Positions 3,743-24,237 of a stretch of DNA of 24,237 nucleotides are shown here, in pieces. The DNA lies in IMG/VR virus record IMGVR_UViG_3300042691_008076, positions 1 through 24,237 of that record. One strand, 5' to 3'. The stretch comes from a virus. The position numbers were made by a program, and so were the translations under genes. The notes below the pieces were generated by a model that was not told the origin of the DNA, did not search any database, and saw nothing but the letters and a program-made list of their open reading frames with translations. Each line of letters begins with the position of its first letter. Within the stretch, counting starts at the first letter, position 1.

Positions 3743-3750
3743 ATAACTAG
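3743..3750 (-). promoter_or_regulatory. Putative late promoter element of the second sheath gene
   Basis: A perfect minus-strand CTAGTTAT lies 37 nt upstream of the ATG at 3705 and immediately downstream of an intrinsic terminator. That is where a new transcript must begin if the second sheath is to be expressed strongly. The promoter role is inferred from the recurrence of the motif. Confidence 0.6.
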
Positions 3751-8969: not shown

Positions 8970-9935
8970 CTAGCTTTCTGTGATGATAACTATGGATGAT
9001 TCGTGGCCCACTTCTTCGGAAGCAACAAGGAGCTTCCAGCCCTTGTGGGTTTTCAGCCTTCCATGAAGCAGGGCGTAAAGCCCTTGCTTGTAAAGCCCAT
9101 GTTCCTTGGCGAACGTTGGCACATGTGAAATGTTGTGATATATCGTGCCATCAGGCGCCAACAGCGAGCCATATGTCTTTACCGGCTGCGTGCTATTTCT
9201 GTTGGCGATGTTCTTTCGGGCCTGTTCTTGCTTTTTGGCCCTGAACACTGGGTCTGATGCGATTCTTTCGTTGATAGCTTTGGTCCGCCTTGCCTGATTT
9301 GCTGGATCGCTGAGAGCCGCTATAGCAACTTTCCTTTGGTTAGGGTCTTTCATTCGTTCTTGCATTAGAACGGACATGGCTGCACGATGTTCTTCGCTTT
9401 CCCATAGCCGTTTGGCATGTTTAGAAGCTTTCGCCTTATATTCCGGCGTATCCATGGCCGCCATTCGTTTGATGGCCACTTTCTCTTTGAAACCGGGTTC
9501 TTGCCACTTTTTCTTCATGGCTTCGCTTTGCTTGGCACTTGTTTCCGTTGGCGTCTTCGAATGACATGCCCGCCATTCTCCTCGGATTATTTCGGTGCAG
9601 TTGTAGCATGCTCGTGTTCCATCCTCTAAGATAAGTCGGTATACGTTTGAGATACGTCGCTCTTCGGCGGCGTTTCTTTCTTCTTTCGACGCCCCAACCA
9701 TAACCTCCAGTACGCAGAACAGAAGGAAGTTGTCGTGTCCTAAGAGCGTGACACATTTGTTATAATCGGCCTGCAAGAATCGATTCGAATGGTTACCACC
9801 CATAAGGTCACGACAATGATTCTGCCAACGGTTTCTGAACCGATTCGTTTGCCCAATATACACTCTGCCCGTATGCGTGTTGGTGATTTGGTAAATGCCA
9901 CCCAAGTGACCGTGTTCATTGCTGTTGAATATCAC
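8970..9935 (-). CDS. GIY-YIG homing endonuclease with NUMOD-type DNA-binding repeats
   Basis: A 321-residue site-specific nuclease that would cut an uninterrupted allele and spread itself by repair. The GIY-YIG domain occupies about residues 12-90: GGIYQITN (GIY 13-15), GRVYIGQT (YIG 26-28), the conserved Arg in RFRNRW and the metal-binding Glu in FCVLEVM (Glu78). Residues 120-250 carry NUMOD3-like basic repeats (SEAMKKKWQEPGFKEKV, KAKASKHAKRLW, QARRTKAINERI). The C-terminus has an IENR1/NUMOD1-like helix-turn-helix (SLLAPDGTIYHNISHVPTF to HKGWKLL). The start is a GTG without a clear ribosome-binding site, 35 nt after the adaptor gene stop. Its TAG stop directly abuts, in the same reading frame, the coding sequence of the neck gene. 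Confidence 0.88.
   Translation of the reverse strand: MIFNSNEHGHLGGIYQITNTHTGRVYIGQTNRFRNRWQNHCRDLMGGNHSNRFLQADYNKCVTLLGHDNFLLFCVLEVMVGASKEERNAAEERRISNVYRLILEDGTRACYNCTEIIRGEWRACHSKTPTETSAKQSEAMKKKWQEPGFKEKVAIKRMAAMDTPEYKAKASKHAKRLWESEEHRAAMSVLMQERMKDPNQRKVAIAALSDPANQARRTKAINERIASDPVFRAKKQEQARKNIANRNSTQPVKTYGSLLAPDGTIYHNISHVPTFAKEHGLYKQGLYALLHGRLKTHKGWKLLVASEEVGHESSIVIITES
8986..8993 (-). promoter_or_regulatory. Putative late promoter element of the neck gene, inside the endonuclease 3' end
   Basis: The minus strand reads ATAGTTAT, identical to the element before the 186-residue gene. It sits in the last codons of the homing endonuclease and about 25 nt before the proposed neck start. If functional, it would separate neck expression from that of the endonuclease. 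Confidence 0.4.
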
Positions 9936-11275: not shown

Positions 11276-12124
11276 CTACTTCTTCGCCTTCTTCTTGCCA
11301 CGCTTCATGAGTCTGTGAACCGTTCCATACACCAGAGCTCCTAGGCGTTGACGCTCTTCCGGGGTCTTCGCATTCGCTGGGTCTCCGTACTCATCCTTGA
11401 GTGCAAGAATAACCTTCTCCCACTTGGCAGGAAACTTACCTTCAACAACAAGCCTGCCCACTTCCTCGAACAGAACCCGAGAAACCACTTCTGCCAACTT
11501 CTTGACCTTCGGTGCTTTTGGCTTCTCTGCCTTCGCTGTAAGTTCCTTGCTAGCAGCGACGAACGACTGCATGATGGTTGAAGCGGCCTTCTTCAACTCG
11601 GGAATATCAGGCAGCAGCGAAGCAAACAGCTTCGCATCACCGTTCGTAAGAGCTTGTCTTACCATGGTTCCAGAGATGCGCTTGCCAGATGGTAGCTGCA
11701 CTTCCTTCAGCGCTACAGGGTGAATACGGCTTTCTGCTGCAAGTGTTGGATAGAGCTTCTGAAGCTTGTCCAGGCTGTACCTGCCTTCAATGTCTTCGGG
11801 ACCAGCGAACAGATAAAAGTCCACAGGCTTGTCCATGTTGTCCTTGATAAACTGGAAGGTGGTACCAACAGGAGAGCCAGGAACAAACACCACTTCGACA
11901 CCCTTGCTCTCAAGCACAGGCTGGATGAACTTCTGAACGTATTCCTTCGCTACTTTGCCGCTGAGAGGAAACTCCCCAGGACGCACTCTGTCTTGTTCAG
12001 ACAGAAACAGATATAGCTTGTCAACGGATTCCTTCGCCGCCAACACACTCAAAAAGTGTCCTATGTGCATAGGCTTGAACGAACCAGGGAACAGCCCAAT
12101 CTTCTTCACTGCAGACTTAGTCAT
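11276..12124 (-). CDS. HxGH nucleotidyltransferase (NMN adenylyltransferase / cytidylyltransferase-like)
   Basis: A protein of the nucleotidylyltransferase superfamily, which transfers AMP or CMP from a nucleoside triphosphate to a phosphate acceptor such as nicotinamide mononucleotide. The fold signature is at the N-terminus: IGLFPGSFKPMHIGHF carries the HxGH motif (His20, His23), and SGKRISGTMVRQAL (ISGTxxR, residues 150-156) supplies the second phosphate-binding motif. Residues 185-282 are a Lys-rich helical tail with EDxYG-type spacing and a very basic end (MKRGKKKAKK). The substrate cannot be decided from sequence. The start is the ATG at 12124 (MTKSAVKK); an ATG at 12130 and a GTG at 12148 are alternatives, but both fall in or upstream of the promoter palindrome. 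It is divergent from the ligase-like gene. Confidence 0.82.
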   Translation of the reverse strand: MTKSAVKKIGLFPGSFKPMHIGHFLSVLAAKESVDKLYLFLSEQDRVRPGEFPLSGKVAKEYVQKFIQPVLESKGVEVVFVPGSPVGTTFQFIKDNMDKPVDFYLFAGPEDIEGRYSLDKLQKLYPTLAAESRIHPVALKEVQLPSGKRISGTMVRQALTNGDAKLFASLLPDIPELKKAASTIMQSFVAASKELTAKAEKPKAPKVKKLAEVVSRVLFEEVGRLVVEGKFPAKWEKVILALKDEYGDPANAKTPEERQRLGALVYGTVHRLMKRGKKKAKK

Positions 12125-12128
12125 GGCC

Positions 12129-12145
12129 ATAACTAGCCTAGTTAT
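12129..12145. promoter_or_regulatory. Palindromic divergent promoter of the nucleotidyltransferase and ligase-like genes
   Basis: The sequence ATAACTAGCCTAGTTAT is a perfect 8-1-8 palindrome, so each strand carries a CTAGTTAT pointing at its own gene. Taking the element as -13 to -6, transcription to the right would begin at 12151, the A of the ligase-like ATG, and to the left at about 12123, one base into the ATG at 12124. Both mRNAs would be leaderless or nearly so. No ribosome-binding site is visible on either side. Confidence 0.6.
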
Positions 12146-12150
12146 CACTC

Positions 12151-13272
12151 ATGAATGACAGAACACACAAACTCATAAGACTCTTGACCAGAGTCCTTGT
12201 GGTAGAACACCTTCAACAACTAGCTGAAGGTGGTGCAGCTGGCCACATGGCTCATCCCTTCGATGTTGAATCGGTCAAGTCCGGTAAAGACTTGGTCGAA
12301 CTGTTTGGCAGAGCAGCCATCTACCTCGCCAAGAACCCAACACACGCCAGCGTCAAGATAGACGGAATCAACGCAAGCATAAGGCTCGCAACAGTTGATG
12401 GTGTCAAGCAGTTCGTTATTGACAGAGGTTCGAACAAGCCACTTGACGTAAGAGGAGTAACCAAGGCCGACCTCGAATCCAGATTCGGTCCTGGCCATGG
12501 CATGATAGAACGTGGAGGCAAGGTTCTAGATATCTTCAACTCTGCTCTACCGGCCATAAAGCCAGAACTACAAGAACTCGGAATGCTCAACAACCCCAAC
12601 GTGATGTTCAACATGGAATATGTTGCTGGTGGCAAGACGAACGTTCAAGAGTACCAGGACAACTTCCTTGCCATCCATGGGCTCCTGGAGATTATGCAGG
12701 TCAGTCCAACCAAGAGAACAGCCACAGAGACATCCTTCAACAAGGATGCCCTAGAAAGGCTCCTGGTGAAACTACAGCCATATGCAAACAAGCAAGGCTT
12801 CAAGGTTCTGCATGCCGTTATTCCTATGCAGTCTAAGCTTCCAGACTTCAAGGCAGAACTAAACAAGTCCTACACCGTAAACATCTCTCCTGACGTACAA
12901 GAGACAAAACCTCTAAAGGCATGGCTCCAAGGTGTGAGCATGCTTCCTAGGAACATGTCCCTGAAGCTATCAACCGGAAAGAAAGTCGAAGCCATAAGCA
13001 AGGACGTGTTTCAGAACATCATGAATGGAACACCGGTGTCCTCTTACCTAGCTGAACCACTGCCCCAGAACGTCAAGGCAGCCGTTGATGGCTTCGTTGT
13101 CTATCTCGCAACCATGAAGTTGGGAGAAGCACTGCTGAACTCTCTTGACAGCGAGCTCGGTCCCGTCGGCTCCCAAGAAGGTATCGTCATAAGAGGCTTG
13201 ACCCCCAAGCCTTTCAAAATCACGGGAACCTTTATCATCCGTGGTCTAGACAGTGCTTTCGCCAAAGCCTAG
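12151..13272 (+). CDS. DNA/RNA ligase-superfamily nucleotidyltransferase
   Basis: The only plus-strand gene, 373 residues. Covalent nucleotidyltransferase motifs appear in order: motif I SVKIDGIN with Lys69 as the expected AMP-accepting residue (KxDG 69-72), a DRGSN segment (residues 91-95), motif III-like FNMEYV with Glu156, IIIa-like NFLAIHGLL, motif IV QEGIVIRG (Glu343), and motif V-like KPFKITG (Lys356). The N-terminus has GGAAGHMAHPFDVE, a signature I associate with uncharacterised ligase-like proteins of other large myoviruses. No OB-fold or BRCT domain follows, so nick sealing, RNA repair or another adenylation chemistry are all possible. The ATG sits at the predicted transcription start; a downstream ATG (12247, MAHPFD) is less likely because the upstream GGAAGH would be lost. 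Confidence 0.72.
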   Translation: MNDRTHKLIRLLTRVLVVEHLQQLAEGGAAGHMAHPFDVESVKSGKDLVELFGRAAIYLAKNPTHASVKIDGINASIRLATVDGVKQFVIDRGSNKPLDVRGVTKADLESRFGPGHGMIERGGKVLDIFNSALPAIKPELQELGMLNNPNVMFNMEYVAGGKTNVQEYQDNFLAIHGLLEIMQVSPTKRTATETSFNKDALERLLVKLQPYANKQGFKVLHAVIPMQSKLPDFKAELNKSYTVNISPDVQETKPLKAWLQGVSMLPRNMSLKLSTGKKVEAISKDVFQNIMNGTPVSSYLAEPLPQNVKAAVDGFVVYLATMKLGEALLNSLDSELGPVGSQEGIVIRGLTPKPFKITGTFIIRGLDSAFAKA

Positions 13273-13368: not shown

Positions 13369-14961
13369 TCACAGTTCAAGAACAAACCGGTTGTTGGTTG
13401 AGCCATATACTCTCCACACGTTGTTCTCTTGAGCTACCACAGCTTCGGACTTTCCTGGTTGCGCCTTGAACTTCAGCCTGGGATATCTTCTCTGTCCATC
13501 CGTATACCAGAACGAAGGCTGGTCGGTTTCTCCATCTGTCTTGAACCCTGAGTTCGCATACACAGCACCAGCTCTTGTACTTCCTCCAAACCGGTTGTCT
13601 GCATATGTGACAATCTTGTTGAATCCGTTGTTGCAACACCAGTTCGAAACGTGCTTCAACAACTTCGAGAATCCTCCTCTTACTCTTGTGTTCAAGATGC
13701 TAGCAAACCTGGCAATCTCCATCCCACCCTCTGCCTTCTTTCGTTGAAGGTATCCTGGAAGTCTAAGACTTATGGCCGCCACAACCCTTTCTTCCTTATC
13801 AACGAGTCCAAATGACACACGACAACCAGTATACCCAGCTATGTGGTTCTCTTCGAAGAACACCCTCGCTTCTCGCATATCCAGTTGCTTCACGGTTGTG
13901 TCCCTGGCGTTGACAGACTGAACCGTAGACCCAACACCGTTCCTAACCATGGATTCAACGATGGCCCTCTTGTTCTCCCACTCATCCTTGAAGAACAAGT
14001 AGCTCTTGATATCGCTGGAGGGTGGGGGTAGATTGTGGTTCTGCAAGTCGTGCAACCGAACCTCCATCTCTTCGCTTGTCCAAACACATGGTTGTTCGAG
14101 CTTGAAGGGGGCAACAGAGGCAAGAAACAATTCAAACTCATCAACACACGGTGACCTGGGTTGAGCCTTCCATCTACTCTCTAGGGCTTCCTTGTACCTG
14201 AACCGTCTACCCCTTGTTGTGTTCCTCCGACCAGAACACACACCGATAATCATGGGAAAAGGAATGCCCGTTATCTTCTCTGCTTCTGCGAGACAAGAGA
14301 ACTCGGCGACAACCTTTCCTTCAGCATCTATCTCCACAACTTCACGCTTGTTGTGTCCACCGTGTTTGGTTGAATGATGGATATACTGGGAAGCTAGCGC
14401 TGGTTCTGCATACTCCCATGTGAAACCACCAATGCTCCCCAGTTTGCCTTTACAACAGTTCATTATGCAAGTGCTGTCGATAGCCAGAACTCTACCAGCT
14501 TCGGCCATGCTTGCCCACTCTCGAATAAAGGTTCGGTCTTTCAAGCTGAGTTGTCGAACAGGACGAAACGAGCTTGGGTCTTGATAAGGAACGTGAGCAA
14601 GTCCCGCCATGTTGTAGCACTCAGGCTTCCCTATGTTCTCATCTAGAACAGCCTGCTCTTTCCGAAACAACTCGTCTCGTGGAATTCCAGCGTCACACAT
14701 CTCCAACACTTCGAACTTGAAGGACTCTTCTCCATACTTCTTCCATGCATTCAACAGGTGAACGTTGCTATGGGTACCGTTTCGCAGCTGTTTCCTGTGT
14801 TCCCACCAACGCTTCGCAAGATTCCAACTGCTGCCAACGTAATAATTCCCGTTGGCTAGGTTGATTATCTTGTATATACCAGGCTTCTTGCACAAGCCAG
14901 TCTTTGTGTATGAACGCTTCTGCCTATTCAACATAGGCTTACCATAGCATGAAAAGGACAT
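13369..14961 (-). CDS. Composite GIY-YIG homing endonuclease with C-terminal GNAT-like domain
   Basis: A mobile endonuclease of about 530 residues inserted after the capsid gene. The GIY-YIG nuclease lies at residues 25-95: KPGIYKI (GIY 28-30), NYYVGSSWNLAKRWWEH (YVG 41-43, Arg51) and FEVLEM with the catalytic-type Glu87. Two IENR1/NUMOD1-like modules follow (CIMNCCKGKLGSIGGFTWEY and IDAEGKVVAEFSCLAEAEKI through GRRNTTRGRRFR). Then comes a block SYLFFKDEWENKRAIVESMV that resembles Vsr/EDxHD-type homing enzymes, and finally a GNAT-like domain (about 360-500: FFEENHIAGYTG, LRLPGYLQ, GGFSKLLKHV, YADNRF, YANSGFK) often seen at the end of phage homing endonucleases. I chose the ATG at 14961; a TTG at 15006 lies inside a hairpin and an ATG at 14934 is also possible. 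Confidence 0.85.
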   Translation of the reverse strand: MSFSCYGKPMLNRQKRSYTKTGLCKKPGIYKIINLANGNYYVGSSWNLAKRWWEHRKQLRNGTHSNVHLLNAWKKYGEESFKFEVLEMCDAGIPRDELFRKEQAVLDENIGKPECYNMAGLAHVPYQDPSSFRPVRQLSLKDRTFIREWASMAEAGRVLAIDSTCIMNCCKGKLGSIGGFTWEYAEPALASQYIHHSTKHGGHNKREVVEIDAEGKVVAEFSCLAEAEKITGIPFPMIIGVCSGRRNTTRGRRFRYKEALESRWKAQPRSPCVDEFELFLASVAPFKLEQPCVWTSEEMEVRLHDLQNHNLPPPSSDIKSYLFFKDEWENKRAIVESMVRNGVGSTVQSVNARDTTVKQLDMREARVFFEENHIAGYTGCRVSFGLVDKEERVVAAISLRLPGYLQRKKAEGGMEIARFASILNTRVRGGFSKLLKHVSNWCCNNGFNKIVTYADNRFGGSTRAGAVYANSGFKTDGETDQPSFWYTDGQRRYPRLKFKAQPGKSEAVVAQENNVWRVYGSTNNRFVLEL

Positions 14962-14982
14962 GTTTTCAAGGAATTGAATGCG

Positions 14983-15016
14983 GAAGGGAGAGCCACCTCT
15001 CGGCAACTCTCCCTTC
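14983..15016 (-). terminator. Stem-loop after the major capsid gene
   Basis: A perfect 10-bp inverted repeat (GAAGGGAGAG 14983-14992, CTCTCCCTTC 15007-15016) with a 14-nt loop lies about 30 nt after the capsid stop. No T-tract follows on the minus strand, so it may be a weak terminator or protect the 3' end of the abundant capsid mRNA. It would also reduce read-through into the endonuclease. Confidence 0.5.
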
Positions 15017-15044: not shown

Positions 15045-17045
15045 TCAGATGATGTTCATATCGAGAACGGTGACCGTAGCGAAGAAGTCACTTCTTACCA
15101 TCTTCTTGCCGTATCTTGTCATCAGGCCCTTACGAGGTGTGAAGTCTTCTGGACCGTAGATGACTGGGGTAAGGATGAGAGGTACGTATGGGGCGTAGAT
15201 GTATCCGCTTTCGAGGAAGGTCGAGCCCTTGTAACCAATCAGGATCTTGTTGGCTGGGAAGTATGGGTCAACGAACACTGAGTAGCGACCGTTGATGGTT
15301 CCCACTGCATCTGCGCCTACGCTCATACCGTCACGGACTTGTCCGTCGCCGTCGATCTTGTACGAAGCACGGTAGCCGATGGTTGCTTCAAGGATGGTTC
15401 CCACTTCTGGTGAGCACACGATGAAGTTACCAGAGCCACGGAGTGTCTTCTTGTAGATCATGTTGGCAGCGTCTGTCACGGTCTCGATGAGGGTCTCGTA
15501 CCACTCACGAACTGTACCTGTGAACGATGGTCCTGGGTAGGTTGTGTTGGTGCGAGCAATCTCGGTACCGGTGAGCTTGTTGACGAATCTACCAGAGGCA
15601 CGGCTCCAGAAGAAGTTCGCTGCACCAGCCTGTGTCAACAGGTCGTTGAGGATTTCACGGTCAACGTCAAGTGTCACGAGCTCAGACAAGATGTTGGTCA
15701 TCTCAGCTTCCACGTCGATCGAGTAGTAAGCTGTCAAGTCCTGAGCCATTTCTGGCGACCAGCGAGCACGGAGCTTGCGGGTTGTGGCTGTGACGTTCAC
15801 TGACTGGATCAAGATGTCAACTTCTGGGATGCGTGGGCTTGGATCGCTGGCGAAGTTGGTCTCGAAGCCTGGGACGGTCAAGGTCGCACCATCCGAGTTC
15901 ACCGAGAGGCTGTCAGCGATAGGAGCCGAGGCTGTCACTCTTGTGTTGTTTCCACCGGCAGCAGCTGCTGAACCGATACCACCACCAGGAAGGTTTGTGG
16001 TCGATGGACCAGACGAACCGTTGGCAAGGGCAAGAGCGAAGATCAAGTGCGAGCCGTTGAATGGATCTGGTGTGAAGGTCGAGCTTGTACCCGAATCATT
16101 CCAGTTACCACGCTTGGTAAAGCGACGGAAGTTCAACAGTGCTTCGCCTTGCTGGTAGGTCGATGGAACCGAGGTGAACACAGAACCCGATGAACCAAGA
16201 CCGCTGATGGCGATTTGCTCGATCGATGTCATGTCAGCACCAGCGATGGCTGCTGTCACCAAGGATGTCGAGAGAACCAAGAAGCAGTAGTCAAGAACGT
16301 TGTTCTCAACGTCAGCCTGCAAGGTTGGATCGTAGTCCACGAAGCGTGCGTTGTAACCAACCATGCCCGCCGAAGCCGACACAGACGATCCTGTTGCCCA
16401 CTGTGTACCACCGTTCCACATACCAACGATGATACCTGCGTTCGCAGCAAGTCCACCCTGGACGTGTACTCTCGAATAACCTGAACCAATCAGGTTGTAC
16501 TGTCCACCTGCAGCAATCGAACCAGAGGTACGGATCGCTGAACCCGATGGGTTGGTGAACACAGACTGGCCACGGCTATAAACCGCTGCGCCTGGGTCTG
16601 TTCCTGTTGCGTACTGGTTGCCAGATGTACCTGCATCGCCACCAACGTACGAACCGTAGGTGTAGTCCAAGTAAAAGAGCAATCCCGATGGAAGGCTCAT
16701 TGGCTGAACCGACACGATCTCATTCGCAATCAGACCAGCAAACACTCTACGGACAATCGGGAACGCCACGTTGGTGAAGCCCACAACCTGTCCAGACGAT
16801 GCAAGACCAGCTCCACCAGTCGAAAGCGAGAGGCTCTCGTTCAGGGTCTGCTTGCTTGTCTGTCCGGTCAGAACTTCAATGGCCTGACTCTCAAGGAGAC
16901 GGGCCATCTTCTGAGCGCCGAAACCGGAAAGCCCTTCGAGAAGACCTGTCTTCTTCCACTTCGCTAGAATTCTGTCGTCCGCAACGTTCATCGCAGTGCG
17001 CTGAATGCCTTCTGCGAGTTGGGCGACTGTTAGGTTTCTTGACAT
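15045..17045 (-). CDS. Major capsid protein (T4 gp23-like)
   Basis: A 666-residue HK97-fold capsid protein that forms the head shell. The diagnostic region is near residues 92-130: VAFPIVRRVFAGLIANEIVS followed by VQPMSLPSGLLFYLDYTYG, matching the T4 gp23 stretch FPMVRR...VQPMNSPTGQ. The C-terminus has the family's GYKG, YAPYVPLILTPVIYGPEDF and MTRYGKKMVRSDFFAT segments. Residues about 130-420 hold Gly/Ser-rich insertions that account for the length beyond T4 (521). The first 70 residues are helical and end in TLNES; LNE fits the LxE/IxE rule of T4-type prohead proteases, so cleavage after Glu70 is likely (T4 gp23 loses 65). The ATG has AGGAG 9 nt upstream and a GTAGTTAG element 35 nt upstream. 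Protease and scaffold genes lie directly upstream. Confidence 0.95.
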   Translation of the reverse strand: MSRNLTVAQLAEGIQRTAMNVADDRILAKWKKTGLLEGLSGFGAQKMARLLESQAIEVLTGQTSKQTLNESLSLSTGGAGLASSGQVVGFTNVAFPIVRRVFAGLIANEIVSVQPMSLPSGLLFYLDYTYGSYVGGDAGTSGNQYATGTDPGAAVYSRGQSVFTNPSGSAIRTSGSIAAGGQYNLIGSGYSRVHVQGGLAANAGIIVGMWNGGTQWATGSSVSASAGMVGYNARFVDYDPTLQADVENNVLDYCFLVLSTSLVTAAIAGADMTSIEQIAISGLGSSGSVFTSVPSTYQQGEALLNFRRFTKRGNWNDSGTSSTFTPDPFNGSHLIFALALANGSSGPSTTNLPGGGIGSAAAAGGNNTRVTASAPIADSLSVNSDGATLTVPGFETNFASDPSPRIPEVDILIQSVNVTATTRKLRARWSPEMAQDLTAYYSIDVEAEMTNILSELVTLDVDREILNDLLTQAGAANFFWSRASGRFVNKLTGTEIARTNTTYPGPSFTGTVREWYETLIETVTDAANMIYKKTLRGSGNFIVCSPEVGTILEATIGYRASYKIDGDGQVRDGMSVGADAVGTINGRYSVFVDPYFPANKILIGYKGSTFLESGYIYAPYVPLILTPVIYGPEDFTPRKGLMTRYGKKMVRSDFFATVTVLDMNII

Positions 17046-17080
17046 CTTGTGTTTCTCCTATGGATTCTTTCTTTGTGTAT

Positions 17081-17088
17081 CTAACTAC
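17081..17088 (-). promoter_or_regulatory. Putative late promoter element of the capsid gene
   Basis: The minus strand reads GTAGTTAG, two bases from the CTAGTTAT consensus, within an overlapping CTAGTAGTTAG. It lies 35 nt before the capsid ATG and just after the scaffold stop codon. Confidence 0.4.
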
Positions 17089-17091
17089 TAG

Positions 17092-18234
17092 TCATTTCGC
17101 AGTTTTCTTCATACCGGCGAGAACCTGCCAGCGTGAAGTGTCGAAGCTTGGAACGGAAGGTTGAGACGCCACTGTCTCTGTCATGGGCTGCTTGCCTTCT
17201 TGAATTGGCTTAGCCGCTGCAGACTTCTTACCCTTGCCGTCAAGAACCTTCACAATCGAGTTGTAAACGTTCTTCGCTTCTGCCAACGTGCGAGCACTAT
17301 CTAGATACTTCACGATTTTACGTTTCTGCGCTCCAGACAAATCGTCTCTCACAAAAAGCTTGTTGAGGTAGATCGAGCGGGCAGTGAGAAGCCTTGTCTC
17401 GTCGAGCTGGCTACGGAGCATCTTGTTCTCCACAACCATCTCTTCTTCAACTGGAGCTTCTTCCTCTACCATCCCCATCTCTTCAAGTTGTTCACGGACC
17501 AGCTTGCGAACTTCAGCAAGTGACATACCTGCCATGTCGTCATCGCCTGCGTCCATTGCATCTGCTGCACCACCGACCGAAGCAGGTGGAACAACTGGGG
17601 CTCCCTCTGAACCCTCTTCGCCCATCTCTACCTCAAGGTCGTCACCGTCAAGAGCAACGTTCACATTGTCAACGTCCTCTCCGGACACACCATCAAGGTC
17701 AAGTGTAAGGCTGAGTGAATCATCACCTGGGGCCATCTCTCCATCCCCAGCACCAAGGCCGTCAACCGAGCCCATGGCGTCCATGTCTTCCATGCCGCCA
17801 GCTAGCTCTTCCTGCTCACGAAGAGCACGGAATGCCTTGAGACGCTTCTGAGCCTTACGGGCTTCAGCAACAAGCTCAGCCTCGTCCATCTCAAGAACAA
17901 CGTCATCGTCTCCACCCATGTCGCCGCACTCAGCTGTAAGCTCTACATCGTCGTCCCCTGACATCTCTGCCATGAGCGAACTGATTTCTTCTTCCAGCTG
18001 TTCCATAAGAGCCTTCTCTTGTGGACCTGGGTCGGCCTTGTGATCGAAGTCAACAGGCTCAGATTCGGCAGTGACACCATCCGGGTTGCCCGAAACCTTC
18101 TGAGCATGGTCGCCAGTCACAGAAGGTGACATTTCTGCTGGCAGGGTTACTTTCCCAACTTCTTTCTCGAAGCCTTCGGCACCCTCAAAAAGCGCCTTTG
18201 CAAAATCCTTCAATGAACCTGTCTTTTTCTTCAT
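17092..18234 (-). CDS. Nested in-frame scaffold gene (internal start)
   Basis: Within the scaffold reading frame the ATG at 18234 (MKKKTGSLKDFAKALFEG) looks like a true start. AAAGGG (minus strand, 18241-18246 region) lies 7 nt upstream, an ATAGTTAT promoter-like element lies 33 nt upstream, and the encoded N-terminus begins with the Lys-rich amphipathic helix common in head core proteins. The product would be 380 residues: the acidic region plus the conserved gp22-like C-terminus, without the Ala/Pro-rich half. LFEG at residues 15-18 fits the LxE cleavage rule. Overlapping scaffold genes that share a C-terminus are known, as with lambda C and Nu3. Existence of the product is inferred from the signals. 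Confidence 0.55.
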   Translation of the reverse strand: MKKKTGSLKDFAKALFEGAEGFEKEVGKVTLPAEMSPSVTGDHAQKVSGNPDGVTAESEPVDFDHKADPGPQEKALMEQLEEEISSLMAEMSGDDDVELTAECGDMGGDDDVVLEMDEAELVAEARKAQKRLKAFRALREQEELAGGMEDMDAMGSVDGLGAGDGEMAPGDDSLSLTLDLDGVSGEDVDNVNVALDGDDLEVEMGEEGSEGAPVVPPASVGGAADAMDAGDDDMAGMSLAEVRKLVREQLEEMGMVEEEAPVEEEMVVENKMLRSQLDETRLLTARSIYLNKLFVRDDLSGAQKRKIVKYLDSARTLAEAKNVYNSIVKVLDGKGKKSAAAKPIQEGKQPMTETVASQPSVPSFDTSRWQVLAGMKKTAK

Positions 18235-19353
18235 ATCCTTACCCTTTACTGATAGTGGATTTCGGGAATAACTATAGGCTATTTGCAGATTTTCGTAGAC
18301 AAGCCCCAACCTGGACTCGTTCAGGGCATATAGCCTTGGGGAAACAACCCCGTTTTCCCTGAGTTTTGTCAAGTTCTCAAGTAGCGAGAAAACGTCCGAG
18401 TTCAGCTTGTCTTTCAACATTGAAGCTGTTGGACCGTCAACCTTGAAGGCTTTTGAAGCACCTTCCTCAAGACTGACAAGTTTCTGCTTGAACTCTGCAT
18501 ATTCCATGACCATCGCTGGCTGTTGTGGAACAGCAGGAGCAGGTGCAGCTGCAGCAGCGTTGGGAACAGCGGCAACTGGCGCTGGTGCAACTGGTGCCAC
18601 AGGTTCAGCAGGAGCCGCAGCAGGGGCAGGAGCGGCAGCGATGGCAGGTTGTGCTGTTGGTTGAACAGGAACCGGCGCAGGGGCTACCACAGGCAGTCCT
18701 GGAGCCTGCTGTGCTTGCTCACCAAGGAACTTGTCAACAGCCGAGTATATCTCAGCAAGACCGGTTGGTGCAGTAATGCTTGATGGTTCTTCGGCTGGTG
18801 GTGCTCCGGGAACAGCAGGTGCAGCAGCCATTGGATCTGTTGCAGCTGGTGGAGGAGCGGCACCGGCAGGGTCAGTTGGAAGTGGCGGTGCTGCCGCTGT
18901 TGTGTCTGTTACAGCTGGTGCTGCTGTCGACTGAAACAGGGAATCAACTGGGATAACGATTTGTTGTTCCCCGGCTGGTCCCGTTTCAATCTTTCCAAGC
19001 ACTTGTGATGCGGCTGGCGCAACGATAGGTGGTGCTGCAGCTGACACGGCTGGTGCAGTTGGGTCCGAAGACACAGGAGGCTGCACCGTGGCATCGAGAG
19101 GAGCAACAGAGCCAGCATCAGGACTTGGTGCCGCTGGTGCTGGAGGTGGCATGTCTGCACTCGCTGCCTGAGCAGGGTCAACAGTTACCGTGTCATCTTG
19201 CTGTTCAAGAATGACTCCACTGATCTCTTGATCGATCATCTTCTTGATCAGTGGGGAAACAGCTTTCAACACTGCGTTCTGAGCTTCGGCTGTGGCTGCC
19301 TCTCGAAGCTTCTGTGCTTCGATGAGGGCTTCTTGGAACAGTGGTGTGGTCAT
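17092..19353 (-). CDS. Prohead scaffolding/core protein with long Ala/Pro-rich N-terminal half (T4 gp22-like)
   Basis: A 753-residue protein that should form the internal core on which the capsid assembles, then be digested by the prohead protease. The end is the diagnostic part: RSQLDETRLLTARSIYLNKL, then LSGAQKRKIVKYLDSARTLAEAKNVYNS, the pattern of T4-like scaffold C-termini. Before it lies a very acidic, Met/Glu/Asp-rich region (about 430-640). Residues 1-55 are helical; 60-285 are low-complexity Ala/Pro/Val; 290-370 are helical again. T4 gp22 has only 269 residues, so the N-terminal half is extra. At residue 374 an internal Met begins a likely nested gene with its own signals. The ATG is preceded by AGAAGAGAG. 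The protein is the direct upstream neighbour of the capsid gene, as in T4. Confidence 0.85.
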   Translation of the reverse strand: MTTPLFQEALIEAQKLREAATAEAQNAVLKAVSPLIKKMIDQEISGVILEQQDDTVTVDPAQAASADMPPPAPAAPSPDAGSVAPLDATVQPPVSSDPTAPAVSAAAPPIVAPAASQVLGKIETGPAGEQQIVIPVDSLFQSTAAPAVTDTTAAAPPLPTDPAGAAPPPAATDPMAAAPAVPGAPPAEEPSSITAPTGLAEIYSAVDKFLGEQAQQAPGLPVVAPAPVPVQPTAQPAIAAAPAPAAAPAEPVAPVAPAPVAAVPNAAAAAPAPAVPQQPAMVMEYAEFKQKLVSLEEGASKAFKVDGPTASMLKDKLNSDVFSLLENLTKLRENGVVSPRLYALNESRLGLVYENLQIAYSYSRNPLSVKGKDMKKKTGSLKDFAKALFEGAEGFEKEVGKVTLPAEMSPSVTGDHAQKVSGNPDGVTAESEPVDFDHKADPGPQEKALMEQLEEEISSLMAEMSGDDDVELTAECGDMGGDDDVVLEMDEAELVAEARKAQKRLKAFRALREQEELAGGMEDMDAMGSVDGLGAGDGEMAPGDDSLSLTLDLDGVSGEDVDNVNVALDGDDLEVEMGEEGSEGAPVVPPASVGGAADAMDAGDDDMAGMSLAEVRKLVREQLEEMGMVEEEAPVEEEMVVENKMLRSQLDETRLLTARSIYLNKLFVRDDLSGAQKRKIVKYLDSARTLAEAKNVYNSIVKVLDGKGKKSAAAKPIQEGKQPMTETVASQPSVPSFDTSRWQVLAGMKKTAK
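18268..18275 (-). promoter_or_regulatory. Putative internal late promoter element within the scaffold gene
   Basis: The minus strand reads ATAGTTAT, one of the few occurrences inside a coding region. It is followed at the usual distance by a ribosome-binding site and the in-frame ATG at 18234. Confidence 0.5.
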
Positions 19354-19442
19354 TGTGTTCTCTCTTCTAACTCCTATATGACTCTCTTAGGTAGAGTGCC
19401 TTGATCCATAAGCAGCGGCTGTACAACACAAGTCATCAAGTC

Positions 19443-20003
19443 TTATGGGTTACTTACGGCTCTGGCTGTAGCAGAACCAACACCCAACTTGAACTTTCGA
19501 ACCTTGCCGATGTTGTCAACCTTGCCGTTCATGTCACGGTTCAAGAACTCACCGTTGGCAGGGTTCAACTGCTCTTGTGGTCTAGCACCGTTTGGTACAA
19601 GACCAGGAGCTACAGCCGAAACGAGCGTTGGATTCACGCCGTTACCCTCTCCAGGAGAAGCTGTGTTTGGCGAGTATGGTGTCGCAGGAAGACCACCAGC
19701 ACCTGTTGGTGTGGTCGCCTTGTTCCTGGGATCAGCATAGATTTCACCTGCTGCTGGGTCAGGCTGGAAGTTCCTTCTGTACATTCCGAAGCCTTGCTGT
19801 ACGTTCTCTCCGTTGTAAGTACCGAGAATTACTGCCGCTTGTTCAGCAGTGTAGTCTCCGGACAGAATTGGAGAGGTACCAAACGCCAACTGAAGGTTGG
19901 TTTGGTTTCTCTTGCCGAGAAAAGGAGCGCCACCTCTAGAGTAGTCCCTTGGACCGTACTCTGGGTTCGCTTCAATGGTTTCGTACTTGACTGTCGATGA
20001 CAT
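19443..20003 (-). CDS. Uncharacterised structural-region protein, 186 residues
   Basis: I do not recognise this protein. It is soluble, without signal peptide, membrane segment or catalytic motif. It is rich in Gly, Pro, Asn and Ala, with a low-complexity centre (about residues 95-150), which suggests a flexible, possibly virion-internal protein. The N-terminal part has YGPRDYSRGGAPFLGKRNQT and a short region SGDYTAEQAAVILGTYNGEN that may be helical. The C-terminus is basic (GKVRKFKLGVGSATARAV). It sits between the protease and scaffold genes, where T4-like phages keep minor core or head proteins. The ATG follows GAGG by about 11 nt, and an ATAGTTAT element lies 37 nt upstream. Confidence 0.7.
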   Translation of the reverse strand: MSSTVKYETIEANPEYGPRDYSRGGAPFLGKRNQTNLQLAFGTSPILSGDYTAEQAAVILGTYNGENVQQGFGMYRRNFQPDPAAGEIYADPRNKATTPTGAGGLPATPYSPNTASPGEGNGVNPTLVSAVAPGLVPNGARPQEQLNPANGEFLNRDMNGKVDNIGKVRKFKLGVGSATARAVSNP

Positions 20004-20040
20004 GATGTTTTATACCTCGCTGCGCTGTGTTTCCGCAGGT

Positions 20041-20048
20041 ATAACTAT
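20041..20048 (-). promoter_or_regulatory. Putative late promoter element of the 186-residue gene
   Basis: The minus strand reads ATAGTTAT, 37 nt before the ATG at 20003. Sequence and spacing match the internal scaffold element. Confidence 0.5.
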
Positions 20049-20082
20049 AACACCTTGTCATTTTACTACCCCCAGAGCAGTT

Positions 20083-20766
20083 CTACTCGAAACGAGCCTT
20101 CTTGTCGAGGTTTTGTCTTGCTCGCTGAGAGCCGGGAGAAACTCCAGGAAGGAAGCCCTTGCTTGATGCTCCCCCACCAAACAGTCCCGAAGCAGATTCA
20201 GGTGATGGTCTGTTCGAGATAGGTGTTCCTAGAGCAAGCCTCTGCCAAGGACTTACCCAGCCGTCGTTTGCACTTTGGCGATTCTCGTTCAACATCGCAG
20301 GCTGTTGATAGCCGGGGTCTCTTGGAGGCAAGGGATTCCTAGGCGTCACAAACTGTGGGTTGGCCATGTGCTGTGGCTGCTGTTCAGACATAAGCTGCTG
20401 CTGTGAACCCGGACCTGTTGGAAACGACACTCCATACTTCTGGAGCCCGTCCAGGTCAACGCCTGCCTCTGCCCTCTCGGCCATGGCGCTGTGTTGAGGG
20501 ACCGTGTTGTACATGGTGTCGTTCAACACTTCTTCCATTACAGCTCCGAACCTTGCATCCTTGTTTCCCATCGACGCAGCCAACAGCTTGATTCTTGGGT
20601 CGGCTTCTTGTGTCATGAGTTGACTCTGGTGGTTGCCGCCTTGATAAGCAGCAACTCCTGATTCCGATATCAGTTGTGAAAGAACGCCGTTCAGTGCTCC
20701 CTCGCTAATCAACTCCTTCAACGATTCCTTGATAATTGCCTTGAACTCGGTCTTCGTTATCTTCAT
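20083..20766 (-). CDS. Uncharacterised head-region protein with protease-type cleavage motifs, 227 residues
   Basis: I do not recognise a family. The first 35 residues form a charged amphipathic helix (MKITKTEFKAIIKESLKELI) ending in two IxE sites, LISEG (residues 19-23) and LISES (32-36), that fit the T4 gp21 cleavage rule. The rest is Gln/Pro/Asn-rich and probably disordered, with LNEN another possible LxE site. This layout, a helical delivery peptide that can be clipped off followed by a flexible body, suits a prohead core or internal head protein. The gene lies directly downstream of the protease, with a hairpin (20812-20831) between. The ATG is preceded by GAAGAGTGTGAAG; the promoter is unclear, with TATGTTAT at 20802-20809 a weak candidate. 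Confidence 0.7.
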   Translation of the reverse strand: MKITKTEFKAIIKESLKELISEGALNGVLSQLISESGVAAYQGGNHQSQLMTQEADPRIKLLAASMGNKDARFGAVMEEVLNDTMYNTVPQHSAMAERAEAGVDLDGLQKYGVSFPTGPGSQQQLMSEQQPQHMANPQFVTPRNPLPPRDPGYQQPAMLNENRQSANDGWVSPWQRLALGTPISNRPSPESASGLFGGGASSKGFLPGVSPGSQRARQNLDKKARFE

Positions 20767-20838: not shown

Positions 20839-21498
20839 TCACTTGCTACGACGTGAAGGTACCTTCATGGAAAGAAGTGTGTTAGCGGCCCTGTCTACAA
20901 GATCGGCTTTTGTAAGATGAACAGGTATAACAAGCTGCTTGCTCTCCGGAAGCATGAACGCCTGCTGTGTTGAGGGTTCAGAAACAAAATCCCAGCAGAT
21001 GATTTGCAAATCGTCTTGAACAACGTTGGCGTTGTTCTCTCTCACCAACGACCCAAGAGCTCTTGAAGAGATTCCAGGCTTGCCTCCGGCTTCGATGATG
21101 GCCTTGATGATTTGTCCACAAGGTGTGTCGAGAATCTGCACCCTCCCGTAAACGGTGTCACCTTCCATCCAGATTTCCTTGATCATGTGAGAAACGTTCT
21201 TCATATTCACGATCGGTTCCGCTGCATGGTCAAGCTCTCCGAAGGCTCTGTTCTCCCTGATGAGTTTGTCGTAGTTTCGAATCTCTCTCTCAAGAATATC
21301 CTTTGGGTACACTCTGCCGTTCTGGTTGAGTGCGTTTGCTCTCTGAAGGATGCCCTTCAGAATCAATGGCTTGTTGGGTTCCCTTGTCTTGACATCTGCT
21401 TCATCGTATTCAAACGAAGCAAACTCCTTGAGGAACATCATTTTCTTGGGCTGTGTGCTGTTGATCGTGGTTGCCTTGTTGTCTTCTGGAGTTGTCAT
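20839..21498 (-). CDS. Prohead core protease (T4 gp21-like, S80-type)
   Basis: A 219-residue maturation protease that digests the scaffold and trims capsid proteins before DNA packaging. Key motifs are clear: LILKGILQRANALNQNGRVY (about residues 45-64), GELDH with the catalytic His91, KPGISSRALGS with the catalytic Ser144 or Ser145, and CWDFVSEPS (residues 168-176), whose Asp170 is the probable third member. T4 gp21 has the same order and close spacing (His85, Ser140) and similar length (212). The N-terminal 25 residues are polar and may be removed by self-cleavage. The gene starts 3 nt after the stop of the 302-residue gene with no promoter between, so the two are translationally coupled. 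Confidence 0.93.
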   Translation of the reverse strand: MTTPEDNKATTINSTQPKKMMFLKEFASFEYDEADVKTREPNKPLILKGILQRANALNQNGRVYPKDILEREIRNYDKLIRENRAFGELDHAAEPIVNMKNVSHMIKEIWMEGDTVYGRVQILDTPCGQIIKAIIEAGGKPGISSRALGSLVRENNANVVQDDLQIICWDFVSEPSTQQAFMLPESKQLVIPVHLTKADLVDRAANTLLSMKVPSRRSK

Positions 21499-22461: not shown

Positions 22462-22469
22462 ATAACTAG
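22462..22469 (-). promoter_or_regulatory. Putative late promoter element of the 302-residue and protease genes
   Basis: A perfect minus-strand CTAGTTAT lies about 51 nt before the first ATG of the 302-residue gene. The protease gene, 3 nt behind it, would be on the same transcript. Confidence 0.55.
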
Positions 22470-22612: not shown

Positions 22613-24237
22613 TCACCCCTTGCTGCCTGATGTTGGGTTATTCCTTATTCCATCCATGTCAAGAATAAGCTCTTCAACAGAGACTCCAGCTGATTCCGTT
22701 ATTGGTGCTTGCGTAGGTTGTTGTTGGACTGTTGGTGGCACTATCTCGACCTGTTCTAGAATGGCTTTTGCTGCCCTTGTGGGCTTTATTAGGGTTGTGT
22801 TCATGCTCTTCAAGGCAGACTGTAGTTCCTTTGGTATACCGTACGGAATGCCTTCCTGGAGCAAGTCTTGTTCTATTTTCCTTTCCAGGACGAACTTCTT
22901 GACACCGGAGCCACCAAGCGAACCCATGTCATAAGGGTCTTTGCTATATCTGTTCTTTGTTGTGTCGAGCATGGACTTGAAGTCGGGCATGGAAAGGGCT
23001 CTGTTGCCAGAAAAAGCCTTTCGTCTAGATGATGGTGTTGGGTTGTGCTTGATTGGTGTAGATGAGGGTGATGTGGCACGAGGAGATGTGCTTGTGGCTT
23101 CACGTTCTTTCTCTGCCATCCTAGCTCTTCGTAGCTGCATCTCATCCTCTTCTGTTGTTCGTTCAAGGTCTCGAACTTCGTCTGGGTCTGGAGCGAACGG
23201 TGAAGTTGGAACCTTGTAGTTGGACTTGTCGAAGATATCGACGTTGCTGTCAGCAGAACGATCGAACGGTGGGTTCTCTGCTAGCTTCTTGAGTTCTGCC
23301 AAGTACGCCTGGTCTTGACGAGCTTCGTACTTGATTTGGTTTATCTCGTCGGGTCTCAGCTGGAGTATTTCCCTTGAGATGTAGTTCATAGAGTAGAACC
23401 CTGTCTCCTTCGACAGTTCCCAAGCTTTCCCAGCAATGTCAAGCTTACTTGCGATGAGAGCTAGCTTCTGTTGAACAGCTACGGTTGAAGGGTTGGAGAA
23501 CTTCAACTCGAAGTCAATCAAGTCTTCACCCTCGAAACCAAGAGCGTACAGGTGAATAATGGCCAGTTTGTTCAGTTCGGCAATAACAATCTTCTGAAGG
23601 TTGGCGATGGTTCTTGAGAACCTGATGTCCTCTTGAGCAAGTGTTGCCTTCGAGGAGACAGCTTCGTCATAGGTGAGGTAAGCTTTCGGAACCATAAGAG
23701 CTGCGAACAACTTCTTCTGGATGTACTCTACGTCTTCAACGGCTGTAGCGTTCTGTCCACCTGGAAGGTTTTCGATCTTCGTTTGGTTGTTTGGTCTGGT
23801 TGGGAGAAAGAAGTCGTCTTCAACCGAAGCTGGGTTGTACCTGAAGTCTTCCCTTCCAGAGAGTTGCTCAATCACAGAACTGCCCTTGAGCGACTCCTTG
23901 ATTGTCTGCATGTAGGTTCCAACGTCGTTGGGCGGGATAGCAGACACATCAATATAGAACACTCTACGTTCTGGGGAACGAACAAGACGGTATACCAACA
24001 TGGAGTCTTCCATCATGATGAGCTGACGCCATGGACGCCTTGCACTCTCCAAGAAGCTTGTCCCGTAAGGCAAGAACAAGTCGTTGCCTATGATACGGAA
24101 GTGCAGCATCTGCCAGTTCTCAAGGTACTTGCCGCCTCGGGACAACAGTTTGAATCGCACAGCATACGGGTCATCCTTGTCAAACCCTTCTTCACGCTCA
24201 ATCTCATTTATGGGCAACGGCTCAACGTTGATGACAC
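22613..24237 (-). CDS. Portal protein (T4 gp20-like), 5'-truncated by the window edge
   Basis: The portal forms the dodecameric ring at one head vertex; it nucleates prohead assembly and is the DNA gate. The match to T4 gp20 is direct: ARRPWRQLIMMEDSMLVYRLVRSPERR then VFYIDVSAIPP, followed by DDFFLPTRPNNQTKIENLPGG, AALMVPKAYLTYDE, DIRFSRTIANLQKIVI and SREILQLRPDEI. In T4 the equivalent segment begins around residue 250-290, so roughly 200 residues are missing. The frame is open to the window edge (reading VINVEPLPINEIEREE from about 24235), so the TTG at 24217 is not a true start. Beyond the conserved core, the last 190 or so residues form a polar extension (Ser/Pro-rich, then FKSMLDTTKNRYSKDPYDMG, ending in SGSKG) that goes beyond T4 gp20 and may be disordered. 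Confidence 0.94.
   Translation of the reverse strand, partial: VINVEPLPINEIEREEGFDKDDPYAVRFKLLSRGGKYLENWQMLHFRIIGNDLFLPYGTSFLESARRPWRQLIMMEDSMLVYRLVRSPERRVFYIDVSAIPPNDVGTYMQTIKESLKGSSVIEQLSGREDFRYNPASVEDDFFLPTRPNNQTKIENLPGGQNATAVEDVEYIQKKLFAALMVPKAYLTYDEAVSSKATLAQEDIRFSRTIANLQKIVIAELNKLAIIHLYALGFEGEDLIDFELKFSNPSTVAVQQKLALIASKLDIAGKAWELSKETGFYSMNYISREILQLRPDEINQIKYEARQDQAYLAELKKLAENPPFDRSADSNVDIFDKSNYKVPTSPFAPDPDEVRDLERTTEEDEMQLRRARMAEKEREATSTSPRATSPSSTPIKHNPTPSSRRKAFSGNRALSMPDFKSMLDTTKNRYSKDPYDMGSLGGSGVKKFVLERKIEQDLLQEGIPYGIPKELQSALKSMNTTLIKPTRAAKAILEQVEIVPPTVQQQPTQAPITESAGVSVEELILDMDGIRNNPTSGSKG

Follow-up and report, generated by a model that had tools for sequence, protein, structure and literature searches.

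A long scaffold ORF in a T4-type head gene cluster

Does the long open reading frame (ORF) that lies before the major capsid gene of this virus encode one scaffold protein, or is a second, shorter scaffold gene nested within it? The window, which is the whole 24,237-nt stretch of the virus record analyzed here, contains head genes of the T4 type clustered on its minus strand. The cluster includes the portal gene (22613–24217), a 302-aa gene, the prohead protease gene (20839–21498, a family match to phrog_207), genes of 227 and 186 aa, the 753-aa scaffold ORF (17092–19353, 78.2 kDa), and the major capsid protein gene (15045–17045, a family match to phrog_138). Directly 3′ of the capsid gene is a 545-aa homing-endonuclease-like ORF (13369–15006), an unusually long composite of several endonuclease families, HNH among them.

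The scaffold ORF, its N-terminal part included, has no PHROG or Pfam match. A protein search with the whole scaffold protein returned no match among phage records and a single match among viral contigs, the near-identical contig fragment L081, and relatives were therefore found through the capsid protein. The initial annotation described the C-terminus as gp22-like. As a statement of homology this did not hold, since hmmscan found no match between the scaffold and the T4 gp22 family (phrog_237) and hhalign gave probabilities below 3% (0.8–2.8%). The scaffold resembles T4 gp22 in its place between the protease and major capsid genes, in being acidic and helical, and in a suggestive C-terminal pattern (LNMRDAYINYVQREV...LTESQKEKV) that reaches no significant sequence or profile match; T4 gp22, however, is a 269-aa protein with no long form. 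The gp22 label would thus apply to this scaffold by gene order alone.

An internal in-frame start preceded by a promoter-like octamer

The initial annotation proposed that the scaffold ORF contains a nested gene with its own promoter and ribosome-binding site, and the elements it named were all found on the coding strand, which is the minus strand of the window. They are the octamer ATAGTTAT at 18275–18268, which the long frame reads as Tyr-Ser-Tyr, the modest Shine-Dalgarno-like AAAGGG at 18247–18242, 7 nt 5′ of the start, and an in-frame ATG at 18234–18232, which is codon 374 of the 753 in the ORF (19353–17092). The gap from ATAGTTAT to the internal ATG is 33 nt. Translation of the ORF from Met374 bears out the size of the downstream product, a putative short scaffold of 380 aa and 40.6 kDa (17092–18234, minus strand; MKKKTGSL...) that is predicted to begin MKKKTGSLKDFAKALFEG... 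and for which the conservation of the Met and the start signals in relatives provide the evidence. The claim that the spacing is that found before stand-alone genes also agrees with the data, as TAGTTA lies mainly 26, 36, 38, 38, and 52 nt before those genes and 34 nt before the internal ATG. The two proposed signals differed in strength: the promoter part is strong, and the ribosome-binding site is modest in the window, where the duplex energy of AAAGGG does not exceed that of synonymous shuffles.

Three copies of ATAGTTAT are present in the window, against 0.06 expected. Its core TAGTTA occurs ten times and is the most start-upstream-enriched of all window hexamers (binomial P about 1e-10). 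Because eight of the ten copies lie within 100 nt upstream of called gene starts and the ninth is half of a back-to-back pair at 12129–12145, TAGTTA can be taken to mark gene starts in the window. The tenth copy is the internal site, the sole one that is not 5′ of an annotated or plausible gene start, but it is 5′ of the internal ATG. Within the head cluster, on the minus strand, ATAGTTAT at 20041–20048 precedes the 186-aa gene, with TAGTTA 38 nt from the ATG at 20003, and is the probable promoter of a transcript that includes the long scaffold, and TAGTTA at 17082–17087 lies 36 nt from the ATG of the major capsid gene at 17045. Further octamers 5′ of genes, all on the minus strand, are CTAGTTAT 5′ of the 302-aa gene (22462–22469) and of the 1014-aa gene (3743–3750), and CTAGTTAG 5′ of the 163-aa gene (637–644). 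A scan of 16900–20200 found no sigma-70 promoters, and no terminator-like sites on the minus strand.

The pair at 12129–12145 (ATAACTAGCCTAGTTAT) is a near-perfect palindrome of two promoter-like octamers back to back, placed between a minus-strand gene (11276–12148) and a plus-strand gene (12151–13272), and is likely to be a divergent promoter pair. The TAGTTA at 8987–8992 falls in the last codons of a 321-aa ORF; the GTG called as the start of the following gene lies 86 nt away, which would imply either a long leader or a wrongly placed start codon.

Met374 is conserved in relatives with an undivided scaffold ORF

The capsid-protein search returned at least 80 loci with 48–79% identity. Wherever an ORF of useful length precedes the capsid gene, it is, among the matches listed, a single scaffold ORF that is never split, and the complete ORFs in these matches range from 445 to 769 codons. 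In an alignment of 25 scaffold proteins with a mean column identity of only 23%, five columns are invariant and 12 nearly invariant; Met374 is one of the nearly invariant columns and the only internal Met among the 17.

The N- and C-terminal parts are already joined in phages immuto and Mel-JY01, the two closest cultured outgroups, neither of which shows a clear counterpart of the inner start. In Flavobacterium phage immuto, the protein QQO92121.1 (L118:3731–4972), annotated as "DNA polymerase phi-like protein", is encoded directly 5′ of the major capsid gene, has both the N- and C-terminal scaffold-family motifs together with an internal duplication (FEQWLDSVSAQMDKFGKNNPTIQAIEKAV occurs twice), and is probably a scaffold. 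The hypothetical protein WWT39314.1 of Microcystis phage Mel-JY01 (L117:3812–4912) is a scaffold of the same family. At L008 (7001–9773), the capsid-protein match spans 2.8 kb rather than 1.9 kb, which suggests an insertion in the capsid gene (an intron or intervening ORF) or a second copy.

The promoter-like element defines the window's clade

In the closer relatives of the window, AATAGTTA[T/C] precedes the conserved Met, and variants occupy the same place in four loci: AATACTTAT (L008), AATATTTAT (L041), ACTAATTATC (L007), and ACTATTTAT (L056). The variants change the encoded residue, giving Asn-Ser-Tyr, Asn-Thr-Tyr, or Asn-Ile-Tyr, and the DNA pattern stays. That the middle base varies (AGT, ACT, and ATT for Ser, Thr, and Ile) while the flanking bases are fixed points to a constraint on DNA rather than on protein. 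ATANTTAY or its CTANTTAY variant is found 29–44 nt before the Met374 equivalent in 13 of 13 testable clade members. A single clade of 15 rows (support 99) on the capsid-protein tree is set apart by the element, which is present in all 13 rows that contain the region; the other two rows are fragments that lack this region. L056 is an outlier on this tree and has a weaker site.

When k-mers enriched upstream of gene starts were ranked across 13 genomes or loci of the window's clade, (A/C)TANTTAY was the top gapped motif, with 15 occurrences of CTANTTAT against 1.1 expected and 17 of ATANTTAC against 1.7 expected. The motif also lies 5′ of the capsid genes in L004, L007, and L009, and the aligned sites contain no −35 signal or second upstream box. 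A motif model was trained on gene-upstream regions outside the scaffold ORFs, with distances to start codons spread from 10 to 70 nt and the tested genome left out. In 12 of 14 sequences the internal site scored highest of the roughly 2,000 positions in its ORF; the window's own site ranked 1 of 2249 with the window absent from training, and those of L004 and L007 ranked third and eighth. Across 14 related sequences the element scores above synonymous-codon shuffles with a combined P of 4.7e-9, a value that is overstated, as are the other combined P values, because sequences within clades are related and not independent. The window alone gives a P of only 0.056, L041 0.31, and L056 0.16; the significance of the putative promoter comes from the relatives. 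A strict pattern of AATANTTAY, AGG, and ATG applied to the whole relatives was too strict to inform. Matches to gp55-type sigma factors were found in 6 of 14 relatives but are weak (E values 1e-3 to 6e-8), and the window is a fragment; a second late-sigma probe, phrog_12791, matched nowhere in the sequences searched and is uninformative.

The initial annotation had staked the nested gene in part on conservation of the Met and its upstream element. The Met is nearly invariant in relatives, the element recurs in every testable member of the window's clade with an almost fixed spacing and is kept more closely than the encoded residues require, and the proposal of a nested, in-frame scaffold gene with its own promoter-like signal is supported by these comparisons.

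A Shine-Dalgarno sequence precedes the putative internal start in other clades

Other clades are without the (A/C)TANTTAY element before the internal ATG. In 31 of their 42 non-redundant ORFs, the 26–44% part of the ORF has an internal in-frame ATG with AGGAG or GGGAG 4–11 nt ahead of it, whereas synonymous shuffles predict 8.7 such ORFs (P < 5e-5), and the neighboring parts of the ORF are near expectation for this combination. The window's clade is at expectation for the Shine-Dalgarno sequence (1 of 12, against 1.5 expected). In the other clades, the Shine-Dalgarno sequence encodes differing peptides and occurs in two codon phases, and conservation of a protein motif, such as the L/I-X-E site of T4 gp21, therefore does not simply account for it.

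Predicted structure of the long and short products

The AlphaFold model is confident for the helical parts only (full-length pTM 0.26). Two predicted features belong to the long form alone: an N-terminal helix of residues 4–44 (19222–19344, minus strand), which recurs across the family as well as in immuto and Mel-JY01, and a three-helix domain at residues 285–364 (18262–18501, minus strand; block mean pLDDT 80–96). The N-terminal part of the protein is 21% Ala and 15% Pro. The three-helix domain ends just before the junction, residues 366–379, which is a low-confidence linker between predicted domains. A C-terminal helical domain, residues 635–709 (17227–17451, minus strand), would be common to both products. 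The Lys-rich helix that was said to start the short product is predicted, at residues 381–389, only with low confidence. A search for similar viral folds with the full-length model returned weak matches only, of which two had E values below 0.001 and very low TM-scores, and was set aside.

Alternative explanations for the conserved junction

The signals at the junction could be explained without a promoter if Met374 were used as a translation start on the long mRNA, with ATAGTTAT acting as a translational or RNA feature. The clades that have the Shine-Dalgarno sequence alone lend this some weight, as they imply that a short product needs no promoter. Within the window's clade, however, the Shine-Dalgarno sequence does not surpass that of shuffles, while no element is more enriched 5′ of stand-alone genes than the ATANTTAY type, as would be the case for a promoter; we regard this explanation as unlikely. 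It is very improbable that what is conserved is a feature of the protein, with the junction kept as a prohead-protease site or linker and the Met kept by accident. The junction does read N-[STI]-Y in one group and L-Q-E in another, KLQE stands just before the Met in several clades, and T4 gp21 cuts after L/I-X-E (PMC9026906). However, N-[STI]-Y does not fit the L/I-X-E pattern, the peptide itself is variable (KLQEIK, GVKEST, LSGDKN, KAKGAK, VKENAA, and FKEIYK), AGGAG occurs in either of two codon phases although the DNA signal and the ATG persist, and the choice of codons exceeds that in synonymous shuffles. KLQE was considered as a protease site and rejected, because peptide and codon phase vary.

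A recent fusion, in which the gene of a core protein joined a stand-alone scaffold gene whose promoter and start persist as functionless relics, would account for the different composition of the two halves, the N-terminal one being rich in Ala and Pro, and it recalls T4, which has the separate small core genes 67 and 68 in addition to gene 22. The initial annotation had raised such a fusion, with the old signals kept, and had asked whether the halves are separate genes elsewhere. Alignment with relatives gave no separate halves: both are in one ORF in every relative with a pre-capsid ORF among the matches listed, and in the outgroups immuto and Mel-JY01 the two ends are already part of a single protein. 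A relic would not persist almost unchanged in a clade whose capsid identities fall to about 50%, and it would not give way to a different start signal elsewhere; we consider a recent fusion scarcely credible.

Proposed mechanism and comparison with known nested scaffolds

The evidence is drawn entirely from the sequences of metagenomic contigs. Computation identifies a conserved Met, a promoter-like element, and Shine-Dalgarno sequences, all placed non-randomly, and from these we infer transcription, translation, stoichiometry, and a division of labor between the two forms. The reading that we consider probable is a conserved nested, in-frame, 3′-coterminal scaffold gene, whose expression would rely on an internal late promoter in the window's clade and on internal translation initiation elsewhere. 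Because the inner start has its own promoter-like signal, this single gene probably gives the phage both a long and a short scaffold. In the window, (A/C)TANTTAY would be a late promoter without a −35 element, situated inside a long coding region and probably read by a sigma factor of the T4 gp55 type. By analogy with T4 late promoters, transcription would start near 18261, a few bases 3′ of ATAGTTAT, giving a transcript with a short leader and a modest ribosome-binding site from which the 380-residue, 40.6-kDa scaffold would be translated, devoid of the N-terminal helix, Ala/Pro-rich stretch, and three-helix domain of the 753-residue form. The latter, of 78.2 kDa, would come from an upstream transcript, e.g., one starting from 20042. 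As no terminator-like site was found on this strand between the genes, transcription from the putative promoters at 20042, 18269, and 17082 would accumulate toward the capsid gene, which would yield more short than long scaffold and more capsid protein than either. The other clades would make the same short product through internal initiation at a strong Shine-Dalgarno sequence. The long form might organize the core or contact the portal or protease, with the short form as bulk scaffold, and, as a guess, the long form may do the work of T4 gp67 and gp68, which are core proteins separate from gp22 (PMC9026906, PMC9958956).

Compared with T4, the late promoters (TATAAATA, gp55) are likewise short octamers without a −35 element 5′ of structural genes, but the consensus here differs from TATAAATA, which has no occurrence in the window and is not enriched before genes in the relatives. 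Two T4 genes in a comparable late cluster have internal products by these mechanisms according to the T4 record, gene 17 through "internal transcription and in-frame translation" and gene 21 through "internal translation initiation", although neither corresponds to the scaffold gene considered here; gene 22 itself has no annotated internal product in that record. In the part of the literature covered by our search, no report of a nested product was found for a scaffold at the gene 22 position.

Lambda and the herpesviruses provide the classical examples of nested scaffold products. In lambda C/Nu3, the short scaffold starts in frame inside a longer head-assembly gene and the two products have a common C-terminus. 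The long lambda product is a protease, whereas here the protease is a separate gene (20839–21498) and the long form would be a long scaffold. A further difference from lambda C/Nu3 is the internal promoter-like element of the window's clade. In the herpesvirus UL26/UL26.5 pair, the genes are nested in frame and 3′-coterminal with the scaffold as the short product, and the cytomegalovirus assembly-protein family is nested as four 3′-coterminal transcripts (PMC4498786). UL26/UL26.5 has no sequence relation to the scaffold described here, and the N-terminal part of UL26 is a protease, unlike the helix, Ala/Pro-rich stretch, and three-helix domain found here. The present gene thus has the second start, the same frame, and the shared C-terminus of the nested type, and apparently also an expression signal for the short product, since both kinds of signal exceed synonymous shuffles across the relatives; a maturation protease as the unique N-terminal part of the long product is absent.

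We did not find nested scaffold products annotated at the T4-type gene 22 position. We put forward tentatively that a large group of T4-type phages makes two scaffolds from one gene, that its lineages mark the inner start differently, either with an embedded late promoter whose bases dictate amino acids or with a Shine-Dalgarno sequence, and that the ratio of long to short product helps to set capsid size and shape. If true, this would be a conserved feature of a broad uncultured group that has been missed by annotating one start per ORF. The swap of embedded promoter and Shine-Dalgarno sequence would be a rare and clear case of regulatory constraint on coding DNA, and it would point to selection acting on scaffold isoforms in this lineage of capsids. 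The late-promoter consensus (A/C)TANTTAY can be tested in uncultured genomes. Related capsid proteins are also encoded in two very large uncultured phage records, L120 (484 kb) and L122 (595 kb), whose pre-capsid ORFs are of 576 and 310 codons, respectively; the L120 ORF shares the scaffold C-terminal motif.
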